Positions 1 to 57,971 of a stretch of 64,000 bases of DNA are shown in pieces. The stretch spans positions 4,836,001 through 4,900,000 of the forward strand of contig CAJFCV020000002.1 in the NCBI GenBank assembly GCA_904066235.2, in the 5' to 3' direction. Under the pieces are notes generated by a model that searched no databases, was not told the origin of the DNA, and worked only from the letters and a program-made list of their open reading frames with translations. Position numbers and translations under genes: made by a program. Every line of letters starts with the position of its first letter. Positions within the stretch are counted from its first letter, which is position 1. The DNA is from Bursaphelenchus xylophilus (taxonomy: Eukaryota > Nematoda > Chromadorea > Rhabditida > Aphelenchoididae).

Positions 1-3000
1 TGTTCGGCCGTTACGTTATTGGAAAGTCTGTAGAACACGTTGATTCCGGTCTGTCGCAGCATATCCGTTGCCTTCGATCCAAACCCGACTCCATTTCCGG
101 CTCCATAGACATTGGGGACGGCACTTTCCTTGGCAAAAGCGAGCAAAACAAAGCAAAGATGCTCCAGTTGGGCCGAATTGATGGCCATAAAGTCCAATTT
201 CCCCAGTAAATCGCCAATTTTATTCTCCCTTTCCTGCCGATTCTCATTCATTTTGACCGCGACCGTGTTATCGTAGACACTTTCCGTGACTGGGACACTT
301 CTTTGGGCGGGCTTTGGGCATTCCGAGTTTAGTAAATTTCCACATCGGAGTGTTACCGCCAAATTTGTCCTTCGTTCGTAGTAAAGTTTTTGGAAATCAA
401 CCGTATAATCCGTGTTGAGTCGTTCTACGGTCTCCTTGCATGCCAGGAAATCACTAAAATATCAAGTATAATATAAATTTTGCCCAGAAATGACCAAAAT
501 ATCAAGTATAACATAAGTTTTGCGCTCAAATCGCTCAATTTTCCTTCCCCGAGCTTACCGAGCCATGGCAGTTAGTTGATCGAGGTAGCTTTGGAATCTG
601 GACAGTATCATCGGCGAATTCTCGCAAGTTTGTCGACTCGGATTATCAGCCGAAGTGAGGTTTGGATGTGAAGGGACGGCCGGGAAGGCGACACAAGTCT
701 TGGCCGAGGAAGTCGAGTCGATCTGAGCGAAGAATTGGGTCAAATCCGTCGGTGGATTGAAGCCCTGTTGCAGATTTGCCTTCGAATTTGATTGTTTTAG
801 GTAGCAGAGGTAATTGAAGAACTAAAATTACAATGTATCCCTTGCTGATGACGCTTACCTTTGATTCATTACTCATGGCTTGCTCCATTTCCGAAATGCT
901 GATGAATTCCGTCCATATATGCTGAAGATTCTCAAATTATGACAAAAATTAAATTATTTTAGATACCGTATCATTGGAAGTGATCATTTGAACCAAATAA
1001 TCCATGGGTAGGTCGTTGTAATTCGAGAATTCGGGATTGTAAACGTCCTTATTGAATATCCACTGGCCTGTGGCCCTGATAAACCCGGCCAATCTTTCGT
1101 TCTCGGCGTCCTTCTCCGCTTGAGGCAATGATTTCTCCCTCAATTCGTCGAATAAAGGCTTTGCCGCCGGACATGAAAGATAACGGGCGCCTGGACAAAA
1201 CTTTTTCCTGCAAGTCACACCATTATACAACTCATTTTTCCACTTTACCTCTCAAAATTCTCTCTTTTCAACAAACAAATGCATAATTGTTGCAATGCCA
1301 GTGGATAAACTGCACTTTGAATTGCCTCAGGGGTGTTACAGAACTCAAGCCACCTGTAGAAAGCCGTACGGTTCACTCCGAGCATGATATTCGATTTGGA
1401 TTGGGCTCTCTAAACAACAGTCATCATGTATAATATAATCCTTACTTTGACACATTCTTCAAGTGACCTCGCCGGATGTTTTCCCATATTCTGATAGAGG
1501 ACTGCATAAAATTGAGTGTAGATTTGTGGCTCAGCTCTCAGAAGAAAGTACGTCAGCCAGGGAGAGACATTCATGAGGGTGGTGGAGATCAGTGGAGGGG
1601 GGATCTGGGTCGAGAACCAGCCCAACATTCCTTTCGGTGCATCTTTCCAGGCGTTGTATAGGGACTAAAAATAATATTGAAAAGTTTTCAGCTCTAAAAA
1701 ACAGCAATTTCAGACATCAATCTCAATTTTTTTATATCGCGTTCTACAGAAATTCAGTTTTCTGACCTTATAAAGCGCGACAAACTTCTCAATCATCCCA
1801 TCAAATTGATGTGTGGCCTTGACAAAGTGAATTCGAGCCATAATTCCCAACAAATACAGTACACTTTTGTCCTCATTCCACTCGATGCTCTTCTTCGAGG
1901 CCATTAATAAGAACCAACCATCCGATTTGTTGACCAACTCCTGGGGATTTTCAATTTCTCCAAGCTGACTCTATAAACATCAGTTTTATTCTAACTTTAT
2001 CATCACTACAATTCTCAAAAATAAACTCAATAATCAAAAATTTTATATTATCCTTACCGCAATAGCTGATCCAAGTAGTTTCAAAACAGGGCCCGGGAAT
2101 TTATCCGCCCCCATTAGGAACTGCACCGCAAAATGGGACTCATCGGCTCGTAGGAGACGTTCAAAGGCTTCTCGGAAGGAATTGTTGGCATTAAAGTAGG
2201 CCATTCTACCGTAGGCCCGCTTCACGAGGGATGCCAAGACAACTGCAGCTGCATTAAATGACCCGGAATTGACAAGTTCCACCCAATAATTAAGTCCATT
2301 CTCCATGAAGATCTCTGGCCTACAACAAAACAAAAATTGTCTATCAAAAATTTTAAAAATTATATTACACTAGCCATCATCTTTCCAAAAAATCCAAAAC
2401 TCACGTTGAAATTCCTTTTTGCATCAGGTAAATATAGAAGGCGGTGAGATCCGAAGTCGGTGTGTTTAATGAGGGCTAAAATTGTATTAAAACCGATAAA
2501 AATTATGTTATCCATGTTACCTTGATAGTAATTTTCAGCTTGACCAGGGTGTCCCAGCAAAATTTGTCAAAGTTTTGTTCCAGATCGGGGCATTTGCTGG
2601 CCATTTTTGCCGCTTTTTGGAATGATTTTGAAATCAGAGAGTTGCGGTTTTTACAATGAACAATGTGGGATTTCACGATGGTATCGGCGCAAATCTCATG
2701 AGATTCTGGCGGCAAAAAGTAGGGTTCCGAGGACCAATCCAGTGAGGAAAGGACTCTTCGGGCGATCGATGATGCCGGATGATCGACCGGTCGGTTGACA
2801 AGCCACTTTCCGAGGATCGATCCAATGTCGTCCGGGCTGATCTTACACTTTTTCAGGGATGCATTCGTCAAAATATCCACCGCGTATGCGTCGAGATGGT
2901 CGATCTGCCTGTCGACGTATCTTAGAATGGATGGGAGGAGTTCTGGCTTCCTCTCCAGCAGCACCGAAACGGCTTCGGATCCGGCTTTGTAATACTTTTC

Positions 3001-5548
3001 GCGGCTGAATTCATCCAGGAAACAGATTTCGATCAGCTCATCCATAAAAGTGCGAGCATCGAACTTCTCGCATTCCGCGACGACTGAGGCCAGGACCAGG
3101 ATACTGTAGGTCGAATCTTCTTCGTGCTGATCCAGACCTTCCAGCAATTTTCCTTCTAAAATAACATCACAAGTCACCAATTACACATTAATTGCCCCCA
3201 AAAACTACAAAATCAACTCACTCTTCACTTCCTCATTCAATTTGCAATCTTCGATCTCAAAAACTTTGGCAAAATCGTAAATTTTTGGAGCTTTTAACAT
3301 TAAAATAACCCGTAATCTCGCCTTCTCCGTCAATCCAACAAATGGAAAATCGACCAGATATTGCCACAGACCCACACTGAAATAAATATAGCCATTCACA
3401 CCATGTATCAATTGACAATTTGTAATTTTTTACCTTTTTTTAGATATAACATGGTTAACAGCTATGAGGATGACCCGATTAATCTCATTTTGAACCTGAC
3501 TTCTCATTGCATTTGACATCTCATCCTTGGAGAGCATCCAATAGCTCGATAAAAGTTGAGTCATTCTCCTAGAAATTATATTATTCGTTCTTTTGTCTTA
3601 CCTTATGTAATCACAAATTTTCTTTGATACATTTTTCAACGAATTATAGGTCCTGAGGCCCTGATTCAGAAGTTTGAGGACGATCAGAGTGAATGAGATA
3701 AGTGAGAGCATTATCTGATACTTGTTTCCTTCTAAAAAAATAAAAATATCATGTCAAGTACAATACAAAGAAACTCACGATGGACAAAAGTGAAGTGTTT
3801 TAGCGCCACTGAAAAAAGCGAGCTCATTGAAAATTGTCCAAATAGTGCTATTAGATCCAGTTCATTCATATCTGTCAGGTTTACATTCTCCTAAAAGCCA
3901 AAATTATATTACTTTAGAAGACCTACCGTATCCCCGTCCTCACTGACCACATTCCACTCATTATCGCCTTCGTAGAATCTTGCAAAATGGCTGAGAAACT
4001 CTTCTCGCTTCTGAATTGGATGCAAAACTAATGCTAAAAGGGCCAAAAATGTGTCTATTGCTCTCTTCGGTTCCAAAGTTGGTACTGTAATGAAAGTTTG
4101 TAGCAGAGGCACAGCCCAAGGATCGATTGGAGATGGGGAGCGCAAGATTTGGCACACAACAAACTTCTGATCCACGGGTGAGATGGCTTTCAGTAGAACC
4201 GAGGTCTAAAAACATAAAAATGATCTTATCCATCAAGTATAACATACCAATTCCACAATCCAATTGGTCACCGAATCTCTGAATCTTTTCGGCAGCATTG
4301 GAAATCTCAGAAAGTAGAAGAGATCCGACAAAGCTCCGATCAGTTCCGTCCTGTGAGGTTCGAAATTTCGTTGGGTTGAGACTACTGCAATATAATCAAA
4401 ATAAGAATTCAAATGATCTGCTTACAAGTCGGAAGTGAGTTCATATTGAGTTGTTGTGCACTCATGAAACGATTGTTCAAGTGAATTACGATCCACTGAA
4501 TCTGTAACGCCAATGATCGAGCTCTAATTTCCACACAAAAAAATTGTCCCAGCTCCAAAGAGGTCAAATCGTTTAATTCCGCTTGTAGTTGGACCAATTT
4601 CTCCGGCATTAAGGTGGCTTTCTTGTAGTAGGCTTCTCCATGAGCCGACCTGTCACATCCGCAACGTCCCGAATGAGCAATCTTATGATCCACCGTGTTC
4701 CAGACCTCATTATTCGTCTTGGAGAGCTGGATTCCCATCTGATTCTTGAGTTCGGAGTCTCTTTCTAATTGTTCACAGGCCGTCTTGAATCGATCCAACA
4801 GTTCGTAGAGTAAATTTCGAGGCCGAAGTTCTTTCTAAACGCAAAATAAAGATTTCAAACTTGTCTCACCTGATTGAAATGCTCAACAAAATCATCAACG
4901 GAGTCCAGCTCTTCGTTGTGATAGTACTGAAGCAAGTCCATTTCCTGCAGCAATTCCGTTTCATTCCTAACAATTACTTCTTCCCTGGCTGGAGCCGTAG
5001 CCAAAGCTCTTAGGTCCGGATAAAGATTCCTGGTTCTTTCGACCGGACTCGGCGGTTTCACATCAATTTCAGGGGTCTTCAGAGCTGTGAGATCAGGATA
5101 AGCGGGTGGGAGAACTCGAGTTTCCTCTCGACTGTGCTTGGGAAGAAGTGCGTCAAGCGGAAGTTCAATTAGACTTGAGCCTCTGGCAGCCTCCTTAGCC
5201 TTCGATTCCATCGCGTTTGTAGTCCTAAAGACCAAATAATAATATTAAAATACCAACATACCGTAATAGCCCTTCATCCAGCGACTTTTCCTTAATTTTT
5301 CCATTTATCTCTTCACTTTTGGCCCTGACTTCAACTTTCGGCTCCGGAGTTGTCTCCTTAACCTCTTCTTCATCCTCTATTGCCTCTTCTGCTACCTCAA
5401 TTTGAACCTCATTACCTTGTAATTGTGATGTATTTGGAAGATTCTCGGCCAACCCAAAGTCGGATAGAGTTACAGGTTCTGGGGGAGCCTCCTCAAGACT
5501 GGTTCTGGCTTTGGTCCTTCTCTTCGCTTTCGGTCGTTCCTTTTCCAT
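1..5548 (-). CDS. epg-5: EPG-5 autophagy tether, C-terminus beyond window
   Basis: Homologue of EPG5, the large Rab7-effector tether that promotes autophagosome-lysosome fusion. Nineteen exons can be read from an ATG at 5548: 5262-5548, 4870-5224, 4436-4834, 4248-4384, 3927-4205, 3779-3890, 3602-3731, 3434-3568, 3222-3376, 2521-3155, 2371-2475, 2058-2319, 1767-1970, 1446-1664, 1249-1409, 967-1207, 859-921, 559-779 and 1-453, about 1,500 residues. Family landmarks are visible: a basic/acidic N-terminus, a VDDFVEHFNQ-like helix, LRSPSPIDPWAVPLLQ, LIALFGQFSMSSLF and VGLWQYLVDFPF, in the same order as in vertebrate EPG5. The final exon is open at the window edge, so the C-terminal part is missing. 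It lies 294 bp downstream of cct-3 on the same strand, so an operon is possible. The acceptor at 779/780 is weak and that boundary is the least certain. Confidence 0.88.
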
Positions 5549-5842
5549 TCTCCAAACGACCTCATATATCCTTCAACTGATACCATGTATAATATAATTA
5601 ACTTTCCAAAAACCACACAATTCTCCCTTCCGTCCCCCAAATCCTCAAAATAAATGAACCAATGGACTTTATACCAATCTCCAATTTAATTACCATTCAA
5701 TCTTTTGTCAATTTATTTAGAAAAATGAAGCTTAGAGGCAACAAGAACATTGAGAAACAAAGCAAAAAACAAGACCAACATAAACATCGGAACGGAGATG
5801 CGGCGGGACTGAGATTTAGATGGATCAAAAGGGGAATTTGAA

Positions 5843-10290: not shown

Positions 10291-10518
10291 GTATCTTTTT
10301 ATTTTTTTGTAAAGAATTTTAGGTGACATTTGTTGAATTTTCCATCTCTAACGGGTTTTTTGTTGATCTTTTTTGACTAATATTTAAGATATAATGCTAT
10401 TACATACTTTTTTATGTATTTGTATGTATAATAAACGATATTTACTCGAACGTCGAAATAAAAACACAATTATTTTTATATTACACTAGGCGTGTTTAAT
10501 ATAACTATAGTCATAAAT

Positions 10519-11762: not shown

Positions 11763-12608
11763 CTCGGACAGCGATTCAGATTGCTCCCTTCAATTCGACC
11801 GTCGATTTCTCTTCGGTAATGATCTGCAAAAGACGTCTAACGGTTATTTACTTTTTATCTCGCGTCTATAAACGGCTAAACAACGCCGAATGGTAAAAAA
11901 TCAGGGGAAACAAGTGGTCAAGATCTGAATAGAAAACACAAGGTACGAAGTCCGCAGCATCTCTATGCAATCAGGGAGAAAAACAACTGAGAACTGTGAA
12001 CTAAAAAAATGTTTGGCAGCAAAATTGACGAGATATTTGAGAAAAATTATGTTATACATGGCAAACATTTTATCAAACAGAATATTTATGTGAAATGAAG
12101 TGAAAAAACTGTAATTTGATTGATGAAAACGACAATGACAGCTTGTAAACAGCTAATCAACCCATTTTATCAAGAGAGAAACAACTTGCAAGTTCTGTTT
12201 TTTTATTTTTCTCGAAAAAAAGAAAAATCTGCATAAGAGAAAAATTTTGATTATGAGGAAGATTTGCCATAGTTTTCATACGCTTTTGGATGTTGACCTT
12301 GGTTCTGAGAAGGTCCGTTCCACTCCATAATCTACCCTTTTTTGTTATCACTTATCAACGATAACAAAATTCTTCGTTTTCAATTATTTCTTCAATCTTT
12401 GTGCACATTTACTGCATTGTTTTTCCTAAGTCTTGCAAAGTTTAGAACGATCTCTTCCATGTTTCATCAGATGAAAGCGTATCAGTTATTTTTTGACGAA
12501 TTTGTTATCTAAAATGTCAAGTATAATATAAAATAATTTTGGCCAAACGTGTTATTCGAGAGGTTCTTGATGGTTCGGTAGTTTACAAGTCATCATTTTC
12601 AGGTGATA
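11763..12608. promoter_or_regulatory. Divergent intergenic region ECI2/DHCR24
   Basis: An 846 bp AT-rich gap with no coding sequence. It contains an exact copy of the dispersed 14-mer at 12518-12531. A splice-acceptor-like TTTTCAG ends at 12602, only 6 nt before the DHCR24 ATG, consistent with a trans-splice site or a 5' UTR intron. Confidence 0.45.
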
Positions 12609-14601
12609 ATGGGTAAAAGCCAGGGGGTTCCATTGTCGGAGCAGTTTCTGGAATGGTTTCTCTTCAGATTTCGATGGATTTTTGTGATTTTCTTCATTTT
12701 ACCGGCGAGTCTGCTCTACGATGGCTACTATCTGATCAGAAATTACTTGATATTCAAGTTGAATTCGGCTCCGAAGGCGCATGATCGGAAAGTGGCGGTT
12801 ATTCAGAAGCAGGTGAGAGCTGATGCCTAGTGTAATATAAGGTTGTTGTAGATCCGTGAATGGAACGATGGAGGGAGGAAAAAGAAGCTGTGCACAGCTC
12901 GAGCTGGATTCTTGACTATGAGCTTCAGATTTCCGAAATATAAGAAGGGGATGCTCGGGATCAAGACGGATCAGCTGGTGGACATCCTGGAGGTAAGAAT
13001 AATATGAGTTTTTTTTAACGGAAAGCGGGCTTTCTTGATCTCCAGTTGTAGCACGGTGCTCTTTGTAAGGTTCAGGCCCAATCTGACCTCGTTTTGTTAC
13101 TGAAAATTCTATTATACTACCTAAAAGCACCGATTTTTTAATGAAATTAATATTTTTTCAGATTGACACCGAAAAGCGCACAGTTCGAGTGGAGCCAATG
13201 GTCACAATGGGCCAATTGACCAGATTCCTGATTCCCTTGGGTTACACTCTTCCCATTGTCCCAGAACTGGACGATCTTACAGTAGGAGGAATGGTGAATG
13301 GATGTGGAGTAGAGTCAAGTGGAAGGAAGTATGGCCTCTTCCAACACATTTGCCTTCAATTCGAGATTGTGACGGCTACTGGAGAGTTGGTTATAGCCAG
13401 AAAAGATGGTTCGGATCACCAAAGTCTGTTCTACGGGATTCCCTGGAGTCACGGGACTCTCGGATTCCTAGTAGCGGCGACTATCAAGATCATTCCTTGT
13501 AAACCCTACGTCAAATTGCATTACAAACCGGTTAGAGGGTTGGCGGTAAGATTTTTTGCATTTATTTTGTTATATTTTTTTCCATGAATAGTGAAATTTT
13601 GTGGAGTTCAATAAAAAAAAGAAAATGCTAAAATGTAATGTAATATTTGCAGGAGATCACAAACGTCCTTCGCGACTTTTCCACCACCCCATCCAACGAA
13701 TTTGTGGAGGGTATCTTGTATAATAAAGAGTCGGCTGTTATCATGAGTGGCCAGTTCGCCGAGGAGCCCCCAAAGAATGGAACTCTGAACGCGATTGGCA
13801 AATGGTATAAGCCCTGGTTCTTCAAGCACGTCGAGAACATCCTCAACAAAAATCAAGTGGGTTTGTCAAAAGTGTAAAAAGTAGTGTCATGTGTAATGTA
13901 ATTTTTTGTCCAAAATTTGATGTTTGATATTTCAGGAGGTTACGGAGTACATCCCATTGAGGGACTACTACCATCGGCATTCTAAAAGCATATTTTGGGA
14001 GTTGAGAGTGAGTGTTTGAAACTTGATATCAATTTCTGACATGAATAATATAATTTTGGGTCTATTTTAGGATCTGATTCCATTTGGAAACAATGTAATC
14101 TACCGGTACCTTCTCGGATGGGCTCTCCCACCAAAAGTTTCGCTTCTGAAGTTGACAACTCCAGCTCCAATCAGACGTCTTTACAATCGTCATCACATAA
14201 TCCAAGACATGCTGGTCCCACTGACTGCCCTCGAAGACTCGGTCGACCTGTTTGATAAGGAAGTTGGATGCTACCCGATCTGGTTGTGCCCGTTTAATCT
14301 CCCATCCATGCCTGGATTACTAAGAAATCGAACCGGGGCCAACGTTTTATTTGTTGATGTTGGAGTATATGGAAATGCAGAAAGGAAGGGATACGATCCA
14401 AGAGAGACCACCAGAAAGCTGGAGAAGTTCGTTCGAGATGTGAAAGGGGCTCAGATGTTGTATGCGGACACGTATATGACAGCTGCAGAGTTCTGGGAGA
14501 TGTTTGACAACACCTTGTATGACTGGTTGAGAGTAACATACGACTGCCAAGATGCCTTCCCAAATGTCTTTCAGAAGGTCTGCAGAGAAGCCAGGGAGTA
14601 G
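12609..14601 (+). CDS. DHCR24: Delta(24)-sterol reductase (DHCR24)
   Basis: FAD-dependent oxidoreductase that reduces the C24 double bond of sterols at the ER membrane. Six exons (12609-12812, 12852-12992, 13162-13545, 13653-13856, 13936-14007, 14071-14601) give 511 residues, close to the human length of 516. A membrane anchor lies at about residues 15-40 ([21 protein letters not shown]). The FAD_binding_4 domain follows, with [41 protein letters not shown] and [12 protein letters not shown]. The C-terminal part, including [12 protein letters not shown], is also conserved. Nematodes cannot make sterols de novo, so this enzyme probably acts in converting dietary plant sterols to cholesterol-type sterols (family knowledge plus inference). 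Three introns carry sense-oriented copies of the dispersed motif (12827, 13888 variant, 14040). Confidence 0.95.
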
Positions 14602-15057: not shown

Positions 15058-16864
15058 TCAACTGAGTCCGCGTTCATGGCGTTCGAAGATTTTTTCGATC
15101 GAGATCTTGATCTGAAAATAGAAGTTAAGCAAGGATAATATAAATGTTGATTATAGGTTGTTTATTATTGCCATGAATAGGGTCCTTACTTGTTTTTTAG
15201 TCGCAGCAGGCAATGATCGAAGTCTGAGAGCCACAATCTTCCCGAAGAGCATGTCCTCGTCCTCCAGCCAATCAAAAGAACGGCCATGATCCGCCTCCAA
15301 ATCATCGATCGGCTTCGATCTGGTGGGTGTCGATTTCCGTGGTCTTTTAGAAGGGACTTCCAGCAGAGCCTGATCATCGTTTTTCTCATGTAAAAGATGG
15401 GAAATATTGAGAATATTGGCTGGCTTTTGCTCATTCTCATCGGCATCATTTTCCGAAGTCGATGCGATTGCCGAATCCGTGGATTCGGCCTCATTATCGA
15501 CGGAATCTGGTGACGACTGTTGGGCACAAGCCGAGAAAATATTAGTCAGGAGATTTGAGGCCGATTCGTCAAGCAAATTTTGGAAATCTAAAATAATTAT
15601 GATTAGAAGAGTGATTACCTAGAGTAATATAAAAATTAGAATATGTTTATCATGACAATTTACCATTGTTATTTCCATTTTCGCTCTTTCTTTTCTCCGG
15701 GGGTCTGACGCCAACATTCGTTCTCTCCGCGGTATCTCGGAGGTGTTCGTCCAGAAATCCGAGATCCCAAAAATACGGCCATTTTGGTTCGTAGGCAAAA
15801 TTATCGCGGATTGCAAATTTAAGCTCTTTTCGGTAGCGATCTCGGATTTGAAGCCAACGTTTCTTCACTGACTCAACTGAAACTGAAGGCGTTAGGTCTG
15901 GAGAGGAATATGTCCCAGAGGATGAGAATTTGAGTAATTTCGTCTAGCAAAATATATTTTTGAAAAATTTGATTGTAAATTATTATGACTACTTGATCAG
16001 CAAGTGGTCGGATCAAAAATTGTATAAACATTCTGTTTCTGACAGTAAAAAATGAATGTTTCTAGAATGTTCAAAAATATTCTCCATGATGACATAAGTT
16101 TTGCCTTTATCAAGTGACAGTTTTGAGCAACAATATTTGTGCTGTTCTTATCAGCAGGGCTAATAACTTTCAAAAAGAAACTTTGACAAAAACTTGAATA
16201 AACCCAAGTTTAAAATCTATTTTACATTATCCATGATGACCTAGCTCAATATCTTCAAACCCTTACCTGTAACTCCCTCTCCAATCTCATTCGCAACACT
16301 CTCCCAGATTGTCCCCAAGTCCTCATCCGAGCCGGCTCTCATTTTCACATCGAATATTTCCGGGCGACTTCTGACAGCCTTGATCAGGGATATGTTAAAC
16401 CCATTTTTCTTTCCCCAATGCTGATTATCCTCGTCCTGTTGTCTCTCCAGATCCTCAGGCTCGACCTTTGGTTTTGGTTTCACTTTCTTTCCTCCCTTGT
16501 TCATCTTTATGTCATCATCCTTTGCTTGCTGAATGAAGATAAATTGTTCTCGATGGTACATCTTCAAATGATGACTTAAAGAGGTCGTCGATTGCTTGGG
16601 ACCTCGATTAAACACCGCTCCACAAGTATAGCACATTGCTGTGTTGGTTTCGGTCTGCTTTTGAAAGTAGCGCCACCAGGATTTGGCCGGTTGATTCAGG
16701 TCATAACTTTTTGGGAATTCGCCGGAAGCAAAGCGTGATCTTTGTTGAGGTCGGCGGGGAGGTGGCGACGAAGCGGTCGTCGTGTCTAAGAGCTTGTTGG
16801 TGCCAATAATGTTGAGGAAGAGATCAAAGGGTTGTGAGGTCTCATTGTTCGCGATATCCACCAT
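15058..16864 (-). CDS. BED finger / MADF / BESS DNA-binding regulator
   Basis: Five exons: 16267-16864, 15664-15876, 15190-15587 and 15058-15111, with an upstream in-frame ATG at 16894. The first exon encodes a BED-type zinc finger (AMCYTCGAVF...SLSHHLKMYH, C-C-H-H). A MADF (Myb/SANT-like) domain follows and runs across the intron at 15877-16266 (FNISLIKAVRSRPEIFDVK..., VESVKKRWLQIRDRYRKEL, PKWPYFWDLGFL). The C-terminus carries a BESS-like motif split by an intron (DEDMLFGKIVALRLRSLP / KISIEKIFERHERG). BED, MADF and BESS domains belong to sequence-specific transcription factors, so a nuclear DNA-binding role is inferred. The TCCTAG just before the 16864 ATG could be a trans-splice acceptor, which would make 16864 the true start. 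(Four exons are certain; the first may be split further.). Confidence 0.85.
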
Positions 16865-19800
16865 ATCTAGGATAGATGAAGGGATAAGTAACATACGAGA
16901 AAAGTCGCGGAAATTGATATAAAACTCAGGAAAACCGCGGCGAAATAGGAAGTATGGAGCTCGAGTTTTATAACAGAACCGGTTTTGCCTTAGTTGGGGC
17001 CCCTAGCCAGCCAAAAACGGGGCTGATATTATACTAGCCATCTATGTCATCATGCGCAATATACTGCCCAAAACTGACGACAAAGTGAACAAAAAAGACG
17101 TTTCGATTGTCTTAGGCTCATAAAAAAGATTACTGTAGCCTGAGCTTCACCAAAAACTTGTCTATTTCATCCACACTGACCGATATGTCATGTACAATAT
17201 CTCACATCGTCAGGTGAACTTTGATTCAATCCGTCTCCATTCCCAAGATTCTAATTATTTCCACACTATCCAAGGGCCTTATTACCACAGCTATTGTCTT
17301 ACTTGGCCCAACGGTTCCCTCAAATCACACCTTTTCTTCTCGTTAATTCGAGTGTAACCGGCCGGAGGTGTAAGAGTTGTAATAAATACGGGCGGCCCCC
17401 CAATTATTTGACTCCGAAAACGAAAGGTCTCTGAAGGGCGGGGTTTCGGTTGCCCGGGCCGACAGAATTAAGAGGTCCTTCCTGCATTATGAAGGGCCGC
17501 AGGGCATGCCGGTAGAAAAGGCTGCAGATGTTATACGACGCTACCGGTCCAAAGATACGAACTTTCGATGAAACGGAGAGCAGAGAGCGGGAGGAGGGTT
17601 GGCAAGAGGAGATTATTAGGAGGGATGGTTTGGCTAATTGCAGGGAGATTACAGAAGGTGTAATGTGTAATTATGGAGCGCGGTCAAGAAAAGAGGAGCT
17701 ACACAAGGTAAAATAAGGTACAAATACAGGCGAAAAAATAAAATCTGAAAACCAATTAGAGCAAACAGGTCGCCCTACCGTATTTTACTGTAGTATCGAC
17801 TGAAAATTATTGTGATGGGGAAGCCAGACCGGAATTCTAGAAAATTCGTCATCGTGCCAGAAGTCTTAAAACATTTTTTACAGTAATCCTAGTCGACATT
17901 GGAAATTTTAACCCGGCAGAGTCCAACATGGTGCCACCTACTCCATTCAAGATGTCATCACGACACATTGTTTGCAAGTTTATCCCAATCCACTAAACCA
18001 TCACTTATGATAAGATGACTTATAAAACGCCCAAATGAGCCCATCCAACACCTCAGAACGGGAGAAACGAGCGCCATATGAAGTTGTGGATGTTCTCCTT
18101 CTCGCCAAAACCTCGGCGTGACATGAAACACCACGGAAAGAAGGGGGGACGTGTCATTCTCTCGCCTCAAAAAAGTTCTAATCCGGCGCCGGAATCCGGG
18201 CCCTCGGCTCCGGTGCGCACTCATTAGCAGGCCCGACCCCCCAACGCCTCGGCGTTATTTCCTCAGGGCATATCTTCGCAAACTCAGGAAATCCGCTCTC
18301 CTTTCCTTTCGCTCTTCATCTCTTAATTCGGGGCTCCACTTGGCCGTGAAATGGGCCCAGAAGACGAGAAATGAGAGGAGGAGGACGAGGACGAGGAGGC
18401 GACCATCAACATGACAAACTTTGCCGCGAAAACAAATTTCACGGGAGTTATCAGAGACGCCGTTCTAAGACGATCGGATGGACCCTGATTGAAGGAAGAG
18501 GAAATGATCCAAAAACGAGGGACTCGTCCGGGATAAATTAGAGCCCTATCTGAGACTTGAGATGCAAAAACAGGACCAAGGGTTATGGTAATGGCAAGTG
18601 AGGGCGGCCAGCCCTAGAGAAAAGAGAAAGTGAAATAAATATCCAACAGATCTATCAAATAAAACAGCAAAAGTTTCTGTACTTCAGGGACACTGTAATT
18701 TACCGTAATCCCATTAAATTTATCTTGGAGTCTGCTATAAGATAACCAAAATAAGTCGCGCGATTTGAGAGTTGTAAAGCTCGAAAGCCTTGTTACCCCA
18801 TCTCCGACCCTCCACACACTGTAGAACTACGGTATCTACCCAAGCAATTCCTGCAACCCCGAATTATTTGGGTCCACCAAAGTTTTATGCCTCCTCCATT
18901 TCAAGTCCAATATTCTGCATAAACGCGCGAATGTTATTCGAATATATCTATTCAGAAGGCCCAAAGAAATGCCCCCCCCCTTCATTCGGCTCCGGGCCAC
19001 CTGATAAATGACTCCCGAACATTATATTATACATGGAAGGTCCGCACATTTCCGGCCGAATTAATTGAGAGCAGGATTATGGGGCGTCGTCGCCGGATGT
19101 CTGCAGCCTTCCCCCGAGTCACACACACTTCCGGCAACCAAGGTGTGCCTCCGCGATAAGCGCGCCGGAAGCGATAAGCGATCGTTAATTAAAGGCCCTC
19201 ATGGGGCGAGGCACGGTAGGATCGGTCGTTCCGAACTATTCGAAGCACTTGAAATATTCGAAATCTTGGGCCCCATTCCTTGAGGTGGCGTCTGATTCCG
19301 CTTTCCGACCCTGTTTCCGGTTCCGGGAGAAACCCCGTCTCTCTCTCTCTTCCGGCCTCAAGTCGCCCGACAAATTCGGACGATATTTTCGCAATTTATG
19401 GGCCGTAACGCAGAAGGAGAAGGGAGGGGATGAATAAGACCGCGATCAACGTGATCCGGTTTCGACTTGTCCTTATTTCCCGCTTAAAATTAAAAAAAAT
19501 ATATTGGACTATGTTTCCGCAGTAAAATTTTTGTTACCATTGCCCTTCAATGTGAGGCCAAAAGGTCTTTCCGTGGCCGAAAAGTTGCCGAAATCCCCCT
19601 TAATACCTCAAAACAAAACCATAGCTTCTCATTTTTAGCTTATCTTTGCTTGAACGGGAAGAAGATAAGAAAACGAAATAAAAGATGGTTTATGACGTCT
19701 TATAGAGTACTGTCAATTATGAGGTCCAGCAATCAACATCCGAAACGATGACTCAAGAAAGAGTGGAATCGAAATTTTGAAAATCTAGAAAAGCCGTAAT

Positions 19801-34580: not shown

Positions 34581-35388
34581 ATGTTCCATAACACCTTTCA
34601 AAGCGGTTTGTTGTCAGTTCTCTACAGTTTGGGAAGTAAACCATTACAATTATGGGAGAAAACGGTAAGAAACGGGCACATAAAACGAGTGACTGATGAT
34701 GAAATACAAAGTCTAGTTATCGAGGTGATTGGAGCTAATGTTAGGTGAGTTTGCCCAATCAGTAAGCATTTATCGTCAAAAATAATTTTAGTCATCATGA
34801 ATAATATAAATTTATAGTACAACTTACATATCATGTCCATTGGACCCTAAGAAGACGCTCGGCATCAAATTGCCCATCTTTGTTATGACTTTGAAGAATC
34901 TTAAGAAGTATTTTACCTTTGAAATTCAGGTAGGTGTCTATGTCAGAAATATAAAGTTTCTCTTAATTTATGGAGTAATACTTTCTTCTTTCAGGTATTG
35001 GATGATAAAGGTATGAAACGTCGTTTCCGAGCGTCAAACTTCCAATCGACCACTCGGATCAAACCATTTATATGCACCATGCCAATGAGATTGGATGATG
35101 GCTGGAATCAAGTGCAGTTTAATCTGATCGACTTTGTAAAACGAGCGTATGGAACCAATTACGTAGAGACATTGAGGATACAGGTTGGTGCCATCTTTGA
35201 GATATTAAAACGATCTCTTTCAATTTTACGCTTGGCTTCTTTAGATCCACGCCAACTGTCGGATTCGTCGAATCTACTTTGCGGACCGTATCTATACCGA
35301 AGAAGAGTTGCCTCCAGAATTCAAACTGTATTTACCCGTTGGACGATCAAATAATCCAGAGGTTTCCGAAGTGTCGACAGCAGCGTGA
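34581..35388 (+). CDS. CFAP20: CFAP20 cilia and flagella associated protein
   Basis: Highly conserved axonemal doublet inner-junction protein, also found in basal bodies. Exons 34581-34744, 34818-34929, 34995-35183 and 35245-35388 give 202 residues, close to the 193 of human CFAP20. Near-identity is visible throughout: [88 protein letters not shown] and [17 protein letters not shown]. Nematodes have only non-motile sensory cilia, so a role in sensory cilium architecture is inferred. A T-rich TTTTTTTAG lies 9 nt before the ATG and may be a trans-splice acceptor. Intron 1 has an exact dispersed motif at 34796. Confidence 0.96.
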
Positions 35389-41700: not shown

Positions 41701-43346
41701 CGGTGCAATCAAATTTTGCACAGTGCAGTCAATTGCACAGTGCAAGTCGACAAAGTTTTTGGGGGAACGCACAGTGCGGAAGAATGAATGATTATGATTT
41801 TAGAGGTGTTTGACATAAAAAAGCAGAGTAAAAAATGAAAATAAATATACAGTAAGAAGGGTCTACGTATGCATCATACCCTTATCAGCGGTGCACTCCA
41901 TCGCGCCTTTATTTTGATCCAAGAAGGGGATCTCCCCACCTCTACACCCATTAATTTCCTCAATGTCCTTCGAATATTTGCGTGGTCGGCCAATATATTT
42001 GGGTGGTCTCAATTGGTTAGTCATCCCAATGGCCAGATAATTCATTGTGCTCGCTTCTAGCTCGTCTTCTTCGTCCTCATACTCACTCATATCCACTTGG
42101 CAACAATGGAAATCGCCCTGCTCTTCATCGAAAACACAAACCGACCCTTCTGTGCGACAAGAACCAACGCGGCGAGGGTTACAGGCACGGGCCTGGAGAA
42201 AAAATTGTGTCAGAAGAGATTGCGCTTGATTTCAAAATCTCAATTATATTGTAGTATGTGAAAATTGGTATCCCAAAAAAGTGTGCTGATCTTGATAGTA
42301 TTTGGGTGATACAAAACTTGGAGCTCTATTAGAATCTTTGGAAGTTTTCAGACCGGACTTTGCAGAAAGCGCCCAGAAAACGCACTTTATTTTGGAAAAG
42401 TCATCCTTTCTTTTGTTTTTCGAAAAGACGATTATTTAACCTTCGGCAGTTTTATTTCGAAGCTGCATAATGTCAGAAACTTTTTTTAAATCACATTTCC
42501 CTTACATTTCCATCCTTTTCCATGACCGGACCCATCCTGGGCGGGCATTTTATCTGTTTCTTCTCCAATTTCTCGCAACAAATCCCTCTGTCGCCGATTT
42601 TCGAGAAGAAAGAACACCGAAAATGGCCATCAGGGCCACAGTGCAGGACACTGGGGTCGTCTTGCCCTGGGGCAGCACTGCATTCGACCGGTTTTCCCTT
42701 CAGTTTTAGGGCATTTCGACCCTGCGGGCATTGGAGTTCGTCGAATTCGTAACGCGTCCGTGGCGGTTCTGGGAGTCGCCCAAGGATTTTTTGACCAATT
42801 GTGGAGAGATTTGGGATAGTTCCGAAAGAATGCCGGGGAGGATGACTCAAATTATTATCGGAGAGATTGGAATTGAAAGTCTTGTTCCTGAGGGCACATT
42901 TCTGAAGAAGGAAATCAAATTCCTTCTGAATCCCACTCTCCGAGCCACATTCATCCAGCTGGTAAACTCTGAAGACCGTAAGATTATTTAATTTTTAATT
43001 ATCAACATTTTTTATATAACTTTAGGTAAGTTTTTTACGAATCCACTTACTTTTTGGTAGGATGACAAAAAAAGAACTTTGTCGATTCATTCTGCACCGG
43101 ATACCAATGCTTATTCAAGTCCGGGTCACACTCTCCACTCGTCCCGAACACCAGTTTGATCTAAAATTTCTTTTTCTGCACCTAGTGTAATATAATTAAC
43201 GCCCATTTTCACCCCTTTGCTTGATTTCCCTTCGATCAAGAGCCTATAAGTCGAGAATCAACCCGTATCGTAATCAGATAGCCGACCACGACGTCGCTAT
43301 AAATAAATAAACTCACCTGTAATAACAAGCCGAGCAGCCAGATCAT
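38786..43346 (-). CDS. Secreted cysteine-rich lustrin/Kunitz multidomain protein
   Basis: Nine exons join in frame: 43317-43346, 43051-43160, 42506-42968, 41880-42192, 41297-41635, 41076-41255, 40275-40409, 39476-40192 and 38786-38862, about 780 residues. Exon 1 encodes a hydrophobic signal peptide (MIWLLGLLLQ). The body consists of repeated lustrin-type cysteine modules with the pattern C-P-x-G-x(4)-C...CC (CPPGFQCYRS..YICCG, CPEGFYCHKSSHTCC, CPKGYTCTKRF..CC, CPNGYFCELDD..CC). One Kunitz/BPTI-like domain lies in the 41076-41255 exon (FYHSESGECRPFIYTGCSGNDNRFETIRQCEDHC). An EGF-like tail (CDKGRCKCPGNLKAYQGKC) crosses a 613 bp intron into a small last exon (ADCPQDYAEIDGIC). Likely extracellular or cuticle-associated, possibly a protease inhibitor. 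A MITE sits in the 40410-41075 intron. Confidence 0.85.
39135..39168. repeat. Perfect 13-bp hairpin in intron
   Basis: CGGCTCCGGCTCT (39135-39147) pairs perfectly with AGAGCCGGAGCCG (39156-39168) around an 8 nt loop. GGCTCC-rich degenerate repeats follow to about 39230. It lies in the last intron of the lustrin/Kunitz gene. Confidence 0.75.
40467..41059. mobile_element. Tourist/Harbinger-like MITE carrying tRNA-Ser-like unit, copy 2
   Basis: A 593 bp relative of the element at 33488. It shares the terminal CAAGGAAAGTACTT and its complement, the TAA flanks (40464-40466 and 41060-41062) and an AGCTGCC landmark inside each arm. The central hairpin plus tRNA-like unit is also shared, here on the minus strand. 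The long inverted repeats pair with each other almost perfectly but differ from copy 1 (for example CTCCTACTTTTTGACGGGAC in place of TGTGGAATTACCGGTCGAG). Thus the two arms of each copy have evolved together. It sits inside an intron of the lustrin/Kunitz gene and leaves the splice sites intact. Confidence 0.85.
40763..40847 (-). tRNA. tRNA-Ser-like sequence inside MITE copy 2, degenerate
   Basis: On the minus strand it starts GCGGTGTGGCCGAGTGGTTAG, identical to copy 1 including the A box, and has the same CGGGTTCGATT B box. The anticodon arm and variable region differ from copy 1 and no clear anticodon can be read. A perfect 19 nt stem-loop, the complement of that in copy 1, lies immediately upstream (40848-40866). 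Confidence 0.5.
41693..41778. repeat. Cluster of GCACAGTGC palindromes
   Basis: Four palindromic sites lie in 86 bp of an intron of the lustrin/Kunitz gene. They are TGATTGCACGGTGCAATCA (41693-41711), TTGCACAGTGCA (about 41716), TTGCACAGTGCAA (about 41733) and CGCACAGTGCG (about 41768). A fifth, TTTGCACAGTGCAAA, is at 39027-39041 in another intron of the same gene, with a half-similar TACACTGTGCAA just after it. Confidence 0.7.
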
Positions 43347-45090: not shown

Positions 45091-47374
45091 ATGTTTTACT
45101 CACTGAATATACTCAAGAGAAAGAATGCGCAATTTTATCTCATCTGGTAAGATAAAGTCGGAAAAATGTTATGTAATCTTGCAGGAAATTGGCGCACAAT
45201 GGTAATGTAAGCAAAAAGGAAGTGGAAAATGTGGATATCGAGAAGTACTGGTCAGTTTTGAACATCGTGGATAATATAAAAGTTCCAAGAGTAATATAAT
45301 TTGTGTTTTAGTCAGGATCTGAGAAGCTACATTCCGACGGGAAGCTCCAAAGATGTTCGCAATGAAGTGAAAACGAAGATGTCTCTCTATCTTTTGTCCA
45401 TTTTATACTATGGAATTGTAGTTACCCATCACAAGAAGGTCGAGGCTTTTCTCAGCAAACTGGAGCATTTTTTGGATTCGCTGAAGCCGCAGATTGTTGT
45501 ACAGATCAAGAAGCAAGTCCTGGTTGTTTAATGGTTTTATTGAACAATTTTAGACGTCCTCCGCTTCTTGAGGAACAAGAGGAAACTCGGCCAAAGAAGC
45601 GTCGCAGACATCTGCAGATGCTCGAATTTGAAGGCGATCCTTTGTCGATTCTCACTCATGATGAATATCGGGAACTCAATCGACAGGTAACTTTTATTTC
45701 CAATTATTTATTTTATTTTAGATTACTCTTCCCGATGACATTCATGATCGACCTCTGGATGCCGAAGAGTTTATGCAAGAGTTGATGTAAGTGCACCTTT
45801 AGTCTAGTCACTTTCTTTTTTTAGACGCGACATGTATCAAGATCCTCAACAAAATTTGGATTCTTTGCTTCCTGAAGTTCCTCCGTTTGTCCAAGAGGAA
45901 ATTATTCAAGAACATGAAATGCAGTTTCCTCAGGAAAGGGAGAGAAGTTACGATGGCGAAGTGAAGTAAGCATTTCCTTATTGTTCCTTATTTTTTAGGT
46001 ATAATTCTTTGATGGACTTTGAAATGCCGACCTATCAAGAAGCTCGTGATTGGAATAATTTTTTGGACACTGTGAATCAGGTTGGTGTCTTGTATTCCTC
46101 CTATTAATCAATGAGTTCGTTCAGCCATCACTTTTCGAATTAGATGCAGGTCCGTTGCGCACGGAGAACTCGGTTGATATCTCCATCGATGGGAATTACG
46201 AGTTTTTGGAGTCGAGTAATCGAATTGTTTTGCCTCAAATCGAGACGGCTCCACGAAATACGACTGGTCGAAGAAATCCACCAGCCCGCAGACCCAGAAG
46301 ACATGCCAGAATTATTTATGACGAGAAAACTTCCCTGGACGACGTAGGATCTTATTTTAGGTATCTATTGTTTGAATTTTTAGGACGAGATCGCCAATGG
46401 ACTTCAAGACTTTTTTGATTGCATTGAACCTTTGAAAAGACCCTCAAAGGCTGTCAAAAGTGGCGTTCCTCGGCTTTTCCAAATGACCAGCAATCTTCCG
46501 GAATGTAAGTTTTATATAGTTTATTTTATAAAAATTTTAGATGTTCTCGACAAATATGAAGAGGTTTTGGATCGCGCTGAACTTGGAGAGCTTCGTCAAC
46601 TGCTGAATGATATTTCACGGCTTTCAACTCCCGTTAATGGAAGACTATCTCCAAAAGAAGAGCGAAATATCCCAGAAGAGCCGATCCCTGAAGTCCAGCA
46701 TGAAATGGGAATGCAATTTCCAGCAGAAGAACAAGTACATCCATATGAAAATGTTGAGAACGTTCCACCTCAAGATGAGCTTCAAATTCAAATGGAAAAC
46801 CTTGATGAAATTGAAGAGCGCCGTCGATCTTCAATCGGCCCGTCGTTTTATCATCGCTCAAGTGAATTAGAACAACCTCAGTTGGATGTAATTGATGAGT
46901 CCAGATTGAATGATGAGAATATTCCTCCTGGACATCCAGCAATTGTTCAAGGAGAGAAGACTCTGACTCGTCAGCAAACCATTTTTGAGTCTCCTACTCA
47001 AGAAAGAGCTCGCGAAGAACGCAACATCCACCTCAATTCGCCATCGGAGACTAGATTTGATCTCCATCGGTAAGATTTTTAAAATTTGCCCAAAGAATGT
47101 ACCTTTTTTATGGAAAATGATATTATTTTCAGTCGAATTTATGAAAAGGCCCATTCCCAACCAGTTGTTCATCTCGACGAAGTGTTCACTGACCCTCAAT
47201 CCACCCGTGAAAAGGCCAGGGATTTTTCTAATTTGTTATGTAAGTCATTTTTATCTGTAATATTGGAATTTTTTAATCTTAGGGCTTTTGAAAGAGCAGA
47301 AACTTGAATCCGAACAAGATGAGCCCTACGGTCGAATCAAATTGATGTCCGTTAAAGAGCCGGAGGCAGTCTAA
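45091..47374 (+). CDS. rec-8: REC8-like alpha-kleisin cohesin subunit
   Basis: Kleisins close the SMC1-SMC3 cohesin ring; REC8 is the meiotic form. The N-terminal Rad21/Rec8 domain is assembled from exons 45091-45146, 45185-45250 and 45312 onward (MFYSLNILKRKNAQFYLIWK, KKEVENVDIEKYCQDL, MSLYLLSILYYGIVVTHHKK). The C-terminal winged-helix region is in the last exons (QSTREKARDFSNLL, LLKEQKLESEQDEPYGRIKL). The middle is acidic and disordered, as usual for kleisins. The first segment looks closer to REC8 than to RAD21. About ten exons, some introns under 50 nt. The junction at 45500-45580 is ambiguous: the only frame-preserving acceptor found is inside CTTCTTGAG near 45568. It is convergent with the kinase gene, 118 bp apart. 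Confidence 0.8.
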
Positions 47375-47492: not shown

Positions 47493-49427
47493 TTATCTTG
47501 TTTCATTTAGATATTCCAAGCTTGGTAACGCAGATCCATCTGGCATTTTGGCAGTCGGTTTCCTCAAAGAATTGAAAAAAGGATGCCTGAGGGCATCTAA
47601 GCCACGAAGACGTTTGTTGCATTCGTATCGAAGGATTCTGAACATAATTTTTAGAGATAATGGAACCAATCGACGGCATGGATAATATAAAACTATTAAA
47701 ACTCACGCTCCCACCATATCTGCGTGAACTTGTGTCGCGTTCCGATTGTATCTCTTCAAAATTTTAAACCAATTGGCAGCCGGAAACTGGTCCCTCAAGA
47801 TGATTGGGTCCAGTTCATGCCCCGGGACACATTCCTTCAGCTGATCCATATTCGGAGTCCCGCAGATTCTGAAGATTTTCTTCAGCTGATCCGCATTGTC
47901 CTCCCCATAAAAGATGATCCGATTGGTCAACATCTCCGCCAGAATACACCCAGCCGCCCAGATGTCGACCGTCGTATCGTATTTGGTATATTTCATACAA
48001 AGTTCGGGAGCGCGGTAGTATCGAGTCACCTGATACGCCGTGTTTTTCTCGTATGGACGATAGCGACGAGCACTTCCAAAGTCGCCAATCTTCAAGCAGC
48101 CGGAGGCCATGTTCACCAACAAATTGTCCGGCTTGATATCGCGATGAAAGTATCTCACCTTCTCCAAATACAGTAAGCCGCAGAAGGTCTGATACATGAA
48201 CAACTAAAAAAATTTCACAGTGAAAAAATGGATGATAAAAAGCTTACAATCTCCGAAATTATTTGTGAAATTTTCAGCTTGCGTCTTACAGTAATCCAAA
48301 AATAGTTGCCCTTTTTTTCTTTCTAAAAAAATTATTTCTTCTTCCGCCATTTCAGAAATTGACCTATGGCCTTGATCTAATGTCTATGCCATATTTGACG
48401 AAAATCCTTTTTTCCCTCGACAAATCCATAGCTGGAAACCGCTTACTTTGACGTACAACGAAGGCAGAAGGGTTCCCCGATCCATTCTTTTCCCCTGTTC
48501 TTGAGCCACAGTCGATGGCATTAGCTCCAAAATCAACGACCACATCGTTTGCTTGGTCTCGGGATGGACGCAAACGTAATAATACAGCAATTTGATCAGA
48601 TTCTGGTGGTCCAATTTTCTGTGAATCGCGATCTGACGGTCTTCCCTTGACGGATCCGGCCAGATTTTCTTTATGGCCACGGTCAATTCTTGAGATCCTT
48701 TTTTGTCCTTTGGCTTTACTGTGCCCTTGTAGACGTCTAAAAGCTGCTAGGTCTGCAACTTCTCTTATATACCTGAGAACGCGCCACTTCCGAGGTATGC
48801 CTGTTGTTTTACCGTCAATTTACATCTGATGTCCTTGTTTTTACTGACCTTCTTTGCGATCACCTCCACCTCCAATTCGCCCAATTCTACCATAGCTTCG
48901 GCTTGCGTGCTGTTCAGCGGTCGCTTGGCTTGATCGTGTTGTCTCATGGCCACTTGATTCTTATAAAATACGGGGTCAAAGTGCTCGTTCTCCTCCACAT
49001 CTTTTTCACATCCCTTTCCGGCCGCTTTCAATTCGTTTCGGGAAAAGACAATCGGTGAGAAATTACGGGCGCTAGCTGATACAACAACAGGGCTTGATCT
49101 GACAGAAATTTCATCGGCATCGCTATTGAGGTCCGCTGAAATTGCCCACCAGATGAAGCAAAAATAATTAAGTATCTTTAGACTAAGATTTTCTTACTCT
49201 CAGGCTGTTTCTCTTGATTCTTGTCCGCGGGTTTTTCAGAAGCAGCAGTTTTCTTGGAAATGTTGCTTCCGTTACTCTGCAAGCAAAATATCACATAAAT
49301 TATATTACACTAGTCGTCCAGTTTTAAATTTCAGTGTAAAACATGTTGAAAGTACATGAATTTTTCTGATTCTTACGTCTTTGACAATTGAGACACTTGA
49401 CTTTTTACTGGTATCCACTGGTGGCAT
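47493..49427 (-). CDS. Divergent GSK3-like protein kinase
   Basis: CMGC-group kinase closest to glycogen synthase kinase 3, of the divergent GSKL type known in nematodes. A disordered Ser/Lys-rich N-terminus (MPPVDTSKKSSVS) spans three small exons. The kinase core follows: glycine loop YLGSGAFSGIVYKG, catalytic Lys in LTVAIKKIW, HRDIKPDNLLVN, IGDFGSARR, and the activation-loop Tyr context VTRYYRAPEL. WAAGCILAEMLTNRIIF and a short C-terminal lobe ending LRHPFFNSLRKPTAKM come last. Catalytic residues are present, so it should be active. Splicing YVK (48448) to LFMYQTF (48208) reproduces the GSK3 order; a possible 25-residue exon inside that intron is not needed. GSKL proteins are often germline or sperm-enriched, which is only a suggestion here. 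Confidence 0.85.
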
Positions 49428-49743: not shown

Positions 49744-51450
49744 ATGGAGAACCGCGAGCCGATCCCGGTCGAGCCCATCCAGGTGGATAAGCCAGAGAGA
49801 AAAGGAAAGGAGCCGGACGATTTTACTCTCGCGCAGTTCACTTCTGCCAACTTCGGAGATGGCCGACTCGTCAAGATGGATGTGGACTATGCTCCACAGG
49901 TCGATGAGGCTCTGCCAAAAGCCAGCAACATTGCCAAGGTAGATTAATGTTATTTTATATCTTAGTTTTTGGTTTTTAGATAGATTTGGTTATTGTAATG
50001 ACGTTTCAGACAAGTCCTTTGGGTGCCATCGAATCCCTGTCGTTGTTGGAAAAACAAACTCGGCTTGGCGCTGATATGAGATCTAATTCTCGTATTCTAC
50101 GACACATGGTGAAGATTGCTTTCGAAGCAAAGGATTGGAAACTTCTCAACGACACAATTGTCGCCATGTCCAAGAAGAGGTCTCTGATCAAGTTCGCCAT
50201 CAAGAATATGGTCCAAGACTGCTGCGAATTCGTAGATCAGGTCCCAACTGAAGAAGATCGTAACAAATTGGTGGATGTTCTCCGAACTGTGACTGCCGGA
50301 AAGATTTATGTTGAAGTAGAAAGAGCCCGACTGACCAAGAGGGTTGTGAAGAAACTGGAGGCCGAAGGAAAGATCGAAGAGGCCTGGAATAACATGATCG
50401 AACTTCAAGTTGAGACTTTTGGATCAATGGAAATGCCAGAGAAAGTCAGATTTTTGTTGGATCAGATTAGATTGTCAATTCAACGGAATGATTTTGTCAG
50501 AGGAAATATTATTTCCAACAAAATCAGTGTCAAGTTCTTTGACAGCAAGGCTGATGATGTGAGTAAATTAATATTTTTCATCATGGGTAATATAAAATTA
50601 TTTTTTGTTATTTTTAGGTACAAGATCTGAAACTTGAGTTCTATACCTACAAAATTGCTATTGGACTTAATGAAGGAAACTATTTGGATGTCTGCAAGCA
50701 TTATAGATCTGTTTTTGACACTCCAAAGGTCCAGAAAGATGATGATAAAGTTAAAGAAGTAAGTTAAACTACTTGTCTTATTTTTCTGCGTGTAGATCCT
50801 GAAGAATGTCGTTCTCTACGTCTTGCTCTCTCCCCATGGAAATGAGCAATGGGATCAAGTCCATCGTATTCATGCCATCAGACAGCTCGAATTGGTCCCA
50901 GAATATAATAATCTTCTTGAATTGTTCATCAATGAAGAGATTATTGCCTGGAAAGATTCGATACTCAAGACTTACGAAACATTGTTGAGAAAGGGAACTG
51001 CTACCTCGCCTGCACCCCAGGTGTTCTCCGTTACGGATGAAGGTGAGAAAAGATGGAAGACCTTCAAAGAGAGAGTTGGAGAACATAACATGAGGATGAT
51101 CGCCAAGTACTATACCCAGATCACTTTTGATAGAATGGCTGAGATCCTCGAATTCCCGGTGGAGGTGAGTTTTAGCCTTGATGTTTGGGTAATAGTTATG
51201 GATAATATAAAAATTTATTTTTTAGGAAATGGAATCGTTCTTGTGTAATTTAATTGTGACTGGTGTAATCCCTGATGCCAAGATCCACCGTCCTTCACGA
51301 ATTGTGAATCTCCGAGCCCGTAAAGCGAACGTGGAAACCTTGGACCAATGGGGATCAAACGTCCGAAAACTGACCGATATCTTGAATAAGGTCTCTCATC
51401 TGATACTCAAAGAAGAGATGGTTCATAAGCATCTGGAAGCCGGAAAATAA
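49744..51450 (+). CDS. rpn-5: 26S proteasome lid subunit RPN5/PSMD12
   Basis: Non-ATPase PCI-domain subunit of the 19S lid. Exons 49744-49938, 50010-50558, 50618-50758, 50796-51164 and 51225-51450 give about 493 residues. Helical repeats (LEKQTRLGADMRSNSRILRH, IYVEVERARLTKRVVKKLE, IEEAWNNMIELQVETFGSM) precede a C-terminal PCI domain. That domain includes RMIAKYYTQITFDRMAEILE, MESFLCNLIVTGVIPDAKI and the closing helix KVSHLILKEEMVHK. All family blocks are present. Introns 2 and 4 hold copies of the dispersed motif in sense orientation (50582, 51197). It is the second lid subunit in this window. Confidence 0.95.
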
Positions 51451-53188: not shown

Positions 53189-53353
53189 AGCCATTCGATG
53201 TCAGATGACATCCTTCATTTGCGCAATCTTTGATTTGTACCTCATTTTTGATCTCAGCTACTTTGAACTGCTTAGACAATAAATAGACTTGAATAAATAA
53301 GGTTATATTATACATGGCTATGAAATACCCGTTTTGTAGAACAAGTCAATTCC

Positions 53354-57821: not shown

Positions 57822-57971
57822 AATCTTCTACCTTCATTTGTTGGATTTTTGTTGACGTTATTGTTGAAAATGCCTGGATAAATTGTAAAAAGTTTATATT
57901 ACACTAGATCCTTAGTATCCAAATTAGATGTTAAAAGTTTATTATTATCTAATATACTATAATCTCCTCTC

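Follow-up and report, generated by a model that had tools for sequence, protein, structure and literature searches.

In the genome of the nematode Bursaphelenchus xylophilus, a dispersed 14-mer, CWWGDRYAATATAA, forms the core of what we call the A box. This box looks like an undescribed chromatin-organising signal, not a transposon or a promoter of Piwi-interacting RNAs (piRNAs), to judge from its sequence and its surroundings. We analysed it in a 64,000-nt stretch of C2, hereafter the window, and in the whole genome (78,253,340 bases in 8 contigs). The spacing of the boxes and the helical phasing of their flanks both point to chromatin organisation. No published description of the motif was found in the open-licence literature, which was searched by AATATAA.

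Abundance, location and anatomy of the A box

The 14-mer has 27 exact matches in the window, 18 on the plus strand and 9 on the minus strand, against a mean expectation of 0.02 from 100 dinucleotide shuffles. A further 33 window sites depart from it by one mismatch, while the reversed consensus, counted as a control, has neither an exact nor a one-mismatch site there. When 9-mers in the window were counted without prompting, pieces of the motif likewise came out on top. The genome holds 6,415 copies (3,403 on the plus and 3,012 on the minus strand) against 55 (27 + 28) of the reversed 14-mer, and the A box is present on C1 to C6. A first-pass annotation of this stretch, made from the letters alone, had claimed about 27 exact and at least 20 near copies, a strong enrichment and an occurrence on both strands. 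The present counts bear this out, and all 27 exact copies stand where it had placed them. It had also named a frequency no higher than in shuffled sequence as grounds for giving up the motif; the count proved to be far above the shuffles.

Exons and introns were taken from the predictions of a crude gene finder of our own. None of the 27 exact window sites falls in a predicted exon, although exons make up 27.7% of the window (p = 1.6e-4). Predicted introns hold eight of them (3 sense, 5 antisense) and the remaining 19 lie elsewhere, a few of these being, by eye, in short introns missed by the finder (2360, 12827, 23532 and 45286). In six 10-kb pieces of C1, 2 of 47 exact sites were in predicted exons. 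Thus, of the earlier statement that the motif occurs in introns or gaps of nearly every gene, usually once per intron, the non-coding location and the use of either strand stand, and the rest is borne out only in part. When exact and one-mismatch window sites are taken together, predicted introns contain 10 in sense and 6 in antisense orientation. A splicing or branch-point element was rejected, as both orientations occur there.

Along the chromosomes, the variant CAAGTGCAATATAA, which was listed in full for C1-C3, occupies both arms, with 5 of its 84 sites in the middle thirds and no cluster seen at a single end. Two 10-kb pieces from chromosome middles (L059 and L060) contained no exact A box. 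The window, which is box-rich, is situated at 0.40 of C2, so the chromosome middle is not simply empty.

The anatomy of the box was read from 89 non-redundant exact sites, which were left after 5 of 94 unique sites had been removed for flanks at least 50% identical. In these sites the conserved stretch exceeds the 14-mer, with R-Y before the core and W-W-T-T after it. Base choice within the core is structured: a T at position 5 follows CTAG or CAAG in 54 of 59 sites, but CATG in 14 of 48. Among the 33 one-mismatch window sites, position 4 varies most (8 sites), followed by position 11 (5 sites). The near fixity of AATATAA, noted earlier, was partly imposed by the search pattern. Homology limits in three of five box-bearing tandem arrays, starting at -17 to -15 and ending at +13 to +20 of the box, suggest a box of about 30 bp (about -16 to +15). 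A palindromic dimer site was rejected, as the genome has only 6 cases of head-to-head boxes separated by a 5-base gap.

Phased flanks, regular spacing and a second box

Apart from the box, its copies share little sequence. A homologous body around the motif, as expected of a transposon or of a miniature inverted-repeat transposable element (MITE), was not found among the 94 unique sites and 1,128 pairs of array spacers; flanks were unrelated at 89 of the 94 sites and 5 of the 1,128 pairs were related, and a transposon or MITE family was rejected on these grounds. The first-pass annotation had regarded flanks aligning as decayed copies of one transposon as fatal to its view, and they do not align in this way. 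Its preference for a protein-binding site over a transposon remnant agrees with the unrelated flanks, the structured base choice and the helical phase described below.

When 177 non-redundant sites are averaged, their A/T content rises and falls with a period of 10.2 bp, with GC dinucleotides in antiphase. The phase is nearly constant between about -140 and +140 of the box, and the coherence is lost beyond about +140. Hence A/T periodicity near 10 bp across a nucleosome-scale tract, as in the periodic An/Tn clusters (PATCs) of Caenorhabditis elegans, is found around the A box. The phasing power per site at a period of 10.2 bp, from -145 to +164, was 0.64 for the A box (n = 177), compared with 0.06 for TATAAA and 0.08 for AAATTT as ordinary words. 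It was 0.004 for A-box sites with two mismatches, which indicates that an intact box and a phased setting go together. Under a random-phase null, with the region from -17 to +20 omitted, p was 2e-18 for the full set of 177 and 5e-5 for the 87 sites that have no neighbour within 450 bp. The distinctive feature is the fixed register of the box within the 10.2-bp periodicity, not the periodicity as such.

Spacing was studied in a sample of 47 pieces (295,096 bases), from which overlapping loci were left out, though some overlap remains; the controls were the sample itself and the reversed pattern only. Among same-strand pairs 45-260 bp apart, 29 of 30 fall at 125-165 bp, closer pairs (20, 25, 40 and 43 bp) being excluded from this count. 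In 17 of these 29 pairs the spacer shows no resemblance to the units beside it (z at most 4, with values of 2 to 3 in some). Exact pairs on opposite strands less than 260 bp apart were absent from the sample. With one mismatch allowed, opposite-strand pairs below 200 bp comprised five divergent (13, 13, 171, 178 and 187 bp) and four convergent ones (11, 142, 144 and 149 bp). In the whole genome, 862 same-strand A-box pairs lie at 130-160 bp and the reversed pattern gives 0; by our own arithmetic about 8 such pairs are expected if boxes are evenly placed, and several times more if they cluster. We compared the first 66 flanking bases of 48 units, after omitting 52 of 100 listed pairs chosen by eye (42 copies of a satellite on C1, which kept one unit, and 10 near-identical repeats). 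Five of the 1,128 comparisons exceeded the 99.9% null, where about 1 is expected, and three of the five joined units of the same neighbourhood.

A second motif takes part in this spacing. Between +126 and +139 of the A box there is an excess of the word AATGCCA, which is part of a longer M box, about AAACASAATGCCAARAATGGCGGGAAWTT. In the sample, 8 of 9 M boxes (L040 at 3842, 7926 and 8220; L039 at 8433 and 8146; L043 at 1379, 1675 and 5647; L029 at 1381) lie 134-164 bp from a same-strand A box, a fraction biased upward because M was discovered via its offset from A and several pieces had been fetched for A. Not all of these M boxes are independent, since two in L039, and likewise two in L043, are copies. 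The order is A then M, at 134-138 bp, in 6 of the 8 A-M pairs, and the A-to-M spacers of independent pairs look unrelated, except for two comparisons with modest scores. Genome-wide, 358 sites fit AATGCCAARAATGGCGGGAA with at most one mismatch, and the control gave 0; among the matches listed, 5 of 69 lie in the middle thirds of C1-C3. Among 100 listed, same-strand M boxes less than 700 bp apart are separated only by 128-149, 273-298, 412-441 or 554 bp, an apparent ladder with a step of about 139 bp. The opposite-strand distances in this range, again among 100 listed, are 134, 141, 270 and 481 bp. The M box presumably resembles an E2F site.

The box also marks the limits of tandem arrays. It occurs in six of 36 tandem-repeat rows of period at least 30 in the sample, which represent five arrays. 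All five end close to the last box, at +20, +13 and +16, or at +11 and +10 after reduction by one period. They start at -16, -17, -15, +3 and -89 of a box, so that four of five starts fall within -17 to +3. These limits suggest that most duplications span the stretch from one box to another, which is what unequal exchange between two existing boxes would give. A satellite on C1 (9,191,207-9,222,996) consists of 159-160-bp monomers, each of which, among those listed, begins with CTAGTATAATATAA. It may belong to the large repeat regions reported for the largest scaffold (PMC7561696).

Possible roles of the A box

We favour, tentatively and with somewhat less than even confidence, the reading that the A box is a nucleosome-border site for a putative chromatin protein and that it also seeds satellites. 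The 14-mer would be the core of a box of roughly 30 bp, bound between nucleosomes by a sequence-specific chromatin protein. Flanks with an A/T period of 10.2 bp, in phase over about one nucleosome length, would hold the protein and the adjacent nucleosomes in a fixed rotational setting. Several such marks may be needed in a row, which would give boxes every ~140 bp, mostly in one orientation, and an M box could occupy a lattice position in place of an A box. Unequal exchange could then take place between neighbouring boxes, because boxes are often the sole sequence that neighbours share, and would turn a box-spacer-box unit into short tandem arrays and occasionally into satellites. The purpose would most likely be an open or licensed chromatin state, perhaps in the germline, as proposed for PATCs in C. 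elegans.

The B. xylophilus boxes resemble PATCs and germline promoters of C. elegans in having an A/T helical phase in non-coding DNA and introns over a nucleosome-scale extent. PATCs are defined by periodicity; in B. xylophilus, on the other hand, the phase is tied to a sequence box, and the boxes form a ladder. C. elegans also has short motifs in its meiotic pairing centres, which are dispersed and clustered and are probably read by zinc-finger proteins. Unlike them, the A box is found on C1 to C6, and its variant in both arms of C1-C3 without a visible cluster at one end. If the favoured reading is true, nucleosome-scale spacing in a major forest pest would be written by discrete sequence boxes and not by periodicity alone. 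It would also join subjects that are usually kept apart, namely dispersed binding sites, PATC-like periodic DNA and the origin of box-sharing satellites.

Several observations weigh against a nucleosome-border site. With regard to phasing, the signal in the window is weak on its own (p = 4e-4, 60 sites), and the 36 isolated window sites show no significant phasing (p = 0.36). A 10.2-bp periodicity is general in the non-coding DNA of this genome, both near and far from boxes, and the box may merely occupy a fixed register of it. Moreover, two other dispersed words are also coherent, with a power per site of 0.52 for TACAGTAAYC (27 sites) and 0.41 for CGTATTTTAC (21 sites). With regard to spacing, pieces L001-L008, L039-L044, L058 and L061 of the sample were chosen for carrying boxes, 12 of the 29 spaced pairs are plain tandem duplicates, and very old duplicates would also appear unrelated. 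One satellite contributes 43 or more of the 862 pairs in the genome (43 of 100 among the pairs listed). Helical quantisation of the spacing at 10.2 bp was rejected (Rayleigh z = 0.83); the same statistic reached 6.3 at 8 bp and 3.8 at 9.5 bp, perhaps from related arrays. The usual nucleosome repeat is longer than about 140 bp. The upward bias in the A-M count belongs on the same side.

A broader version, possible but doubtful, is that the A and M boxes, two unrelated families, together make up a nucleosome-length ruler. They would lie on a shared ~140-bp lattice in fixed orientation and register and would be read by dedicated proteins, the satellites being a by-product.

The arrays also suit a different account, which we consider unlikely: a recombinogenic or fork-stalling box may make ~140-bp duplications as a selfish or mutational product, single boxes being the worn remains of arrays. 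The coincidence of array ends with a box, the presence of the box in the 159-160-bp monomers of the C1 satellite and the box-less tandem repeats of 110-175-bp period, which are common in the sample, are all in line with it. So is the distribution along the chromosomes, since satellites of C. elegans are likewise described as scarcer in chromosome centres (PMC4595182). Such an origin fits poorly with the coherent 10.2-bp phase kept around isolated boxes, the lack of coherence at two-mismatch sites and the 17 of 29 spacers unlike their neighbours. Within duplicated copies, moreover, the box had 1 change versus 20.8 expected in 9 alignable pairs below 95% identity; we do not use this figure as proof, as intact boxes were the reason for choosing the pieces and a single array supplies 6 of the 9 pairs.

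An origin in former transposons, which would have spread a regulatory element later co-opted as a germline promoter or enhancer, appears improbable. The HIM-17 and CERP2 repeats of C. elegans are germline regulatory elements of this transposon-spread kind. The recurrence of A and M at fixed spacing would agree with such elements, and the W-phasing resembles that of C. elegans germline promoters with phased -1/+1 nucleosomes (PMC7706728). No shared flanks were seen around the A box, however, and the rarity of head-to-head boxes with a 5-base gap, given above, is also unfavourable.

Quite improbable, too, is a CENP-B-box-like or CENH3-linked box of holocentric chromosomes in the fashion of Meloidogyne. 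The first-pass annotation, too, had listed holocentric-chromosome or nuclear-organisation sites as candidates. The boxes of Meloidogyne include a 17-bp CENP-B-box-like Box 1 and a 19-bp box of CENH3-associated repeats. Divergent satellites of that genus are described as sharing a conserved box (PMC9673304; PMC3694981), with monomer junctions in conserved motifs (PMC3694981). The likeness is one of architecture: in B. xylophilus, too, one short box is kept among otherwise unrelated tandem units (862 pairs; 5 of 1,128 comparisons related) and the array junctions lie at the box (at the ends of all five arrays, two of them reduced by one period, and at the starts of four). Unlike the Meloidogyne boxes, those of B. 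xylophilus lie mostly outside exact arrays, in introns and intergenic DNA, with ~140-bp spacing and 10.2-bp phased flanks; exact pairs at 130-160 bp account for only a minority of the 6,415 copies. The scarcity of CAAGTGCAATATAA in the middle thirds of C1-C3 is also unlike an even holocentric spread.

Finally, the first-pass annotation had suggested that A boxes might act as promoter motifs for piRNA-type units dispersed among introns, and this candidate has become very improbable. The A box is like the Ruby motif, or SNAPc site, in being short and scattered in introns in either orientation, and unlike it in having no GTTTC core. Bursaphelenchus presumably belongs to clade IV. An independent loss of the piRNA pathway in clade IV has been put forward (PMC6436959). 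On the other hand, the Pristionchus-type piRNA loci treated in the same report resemble our sites by their intronic location on either strand, and about 14% of small-RNA reads of B. xylophilus were unclassified in a 2010 study, which names Piwi-interacting RNAs among their possible contents (PMC2953492). Our search for Piwi domains yielded 35 pieces, and none of the 20 that were translated carried the PIWI signature. Five Argonaute pieces compared with solved structures matched AGO2 or AGO10 best, so that none of the examined pieces was recognised as a PIWI-type Argonaute, one remaining ambiguous at 50.3 vs 50.0 bits over PIWI. Downstream of the 89 non-redundant exact sites there was no T spike, T being at most 44% at every position from +21 to +144, though a distance varying by several bases would blur this test. 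The A box was also absent from the 95 bases upstream of the 10 readable U2 small nuclear RNA (snRNA) genes (of 11) and of both U6 genes (2 of 2), and a SNAPc/snRNA promoter element was rejected on this ground. In these promoters, TCTAACTTCC is common to 9 of the 10 readable U2 copies. All 11 U2 matches lie on C4, and 8 of them are clustered at 3.95-4.05 Mb.

Boxes along the window and other features

The first exact A box of the window, CAAGTATAATATAA at 463..476 (+), lies in the first copy of a 40-bp direct repeat (447-523), and a one-mismatch box at 503..516 (+) lies in the second copy. Short intron-like gaps, judged by eye, hold the exact boxes at 2360..2373 (-), 12827..12840 (+), 23532..23545 (-) and 45286..45299 (+). 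Two of these have a one-mismatch partner on the same strand with a spacer unlike its neighbours, namely the box at 2360 (partner at 2503-2516, 143 bp) and that at 23532 (partner 152 bp downstream). A third pair joins a one-mismatch box at 13888..13901 (+), in a predicted 79-bp intron, with an exact one 152 bp further on at 14040..14053 (+), in sense orientation in a predicted 63-bp intron; the two lie on the same strand with a predicted exon between them. The other sense boxes in predicted introns are at 49300..49313 (-; intron of 100 bp) and 50582..50595 (+; intron of 59 bp). The antisense ones, all on the plus strand, are at 15130..15143, 15619..15632, 25612..25625, 31710..31723 and 43182..43195. 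The remaining exact boxes are at 1425..1438, 5584..5597, 12518..12531, 19947..19960, 23867..23880, 31236..31249, 34796..34809 and 47677..47690 on the plus strand, and at 10476..10489, 19022..19035, 20579..20592, 34144..34157, 53303..53316 and 57894..57907 on the minus strand.

The word TACAGTAAYC occurs 30 times in the sample, for example at window positions 17879, 30845, 48287, 40259, 17128, 14806 and 14745, and has A/T-phased flanks. The word CGTATTTTAC, with 23 copies in the sample (window positions 17779, 34058 and 23641, for example), has phased flanks as well. Neither word forms a lattice with the A box in the sample.

Repeats of other kinds are also present. Two related inverted repeats of ~600 bp, at 33480-34066 and 40459-41060, have arms of 134 and 126 nt that are 93% and 96% complementary, respectively, and their shared end sequence indicates a MITE-like family. 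The end of the window (62469-64000) contains 198-nt direct repeats as well as inverted repeats, an arm of which, 238 nt long and 96% complementary, reaches the window end. A zf-BED domain protein is encoded at 16241-17002 on the minus strand; this domain is frequent in transposon-derived DNA-binding proteins. Glycoside hydrolase family 45 (GH45) has seventeen matches in the genome, and a PLP-like gene at 55,513-56,265 of the window is 77% identical to a B. okinawaensis protein.

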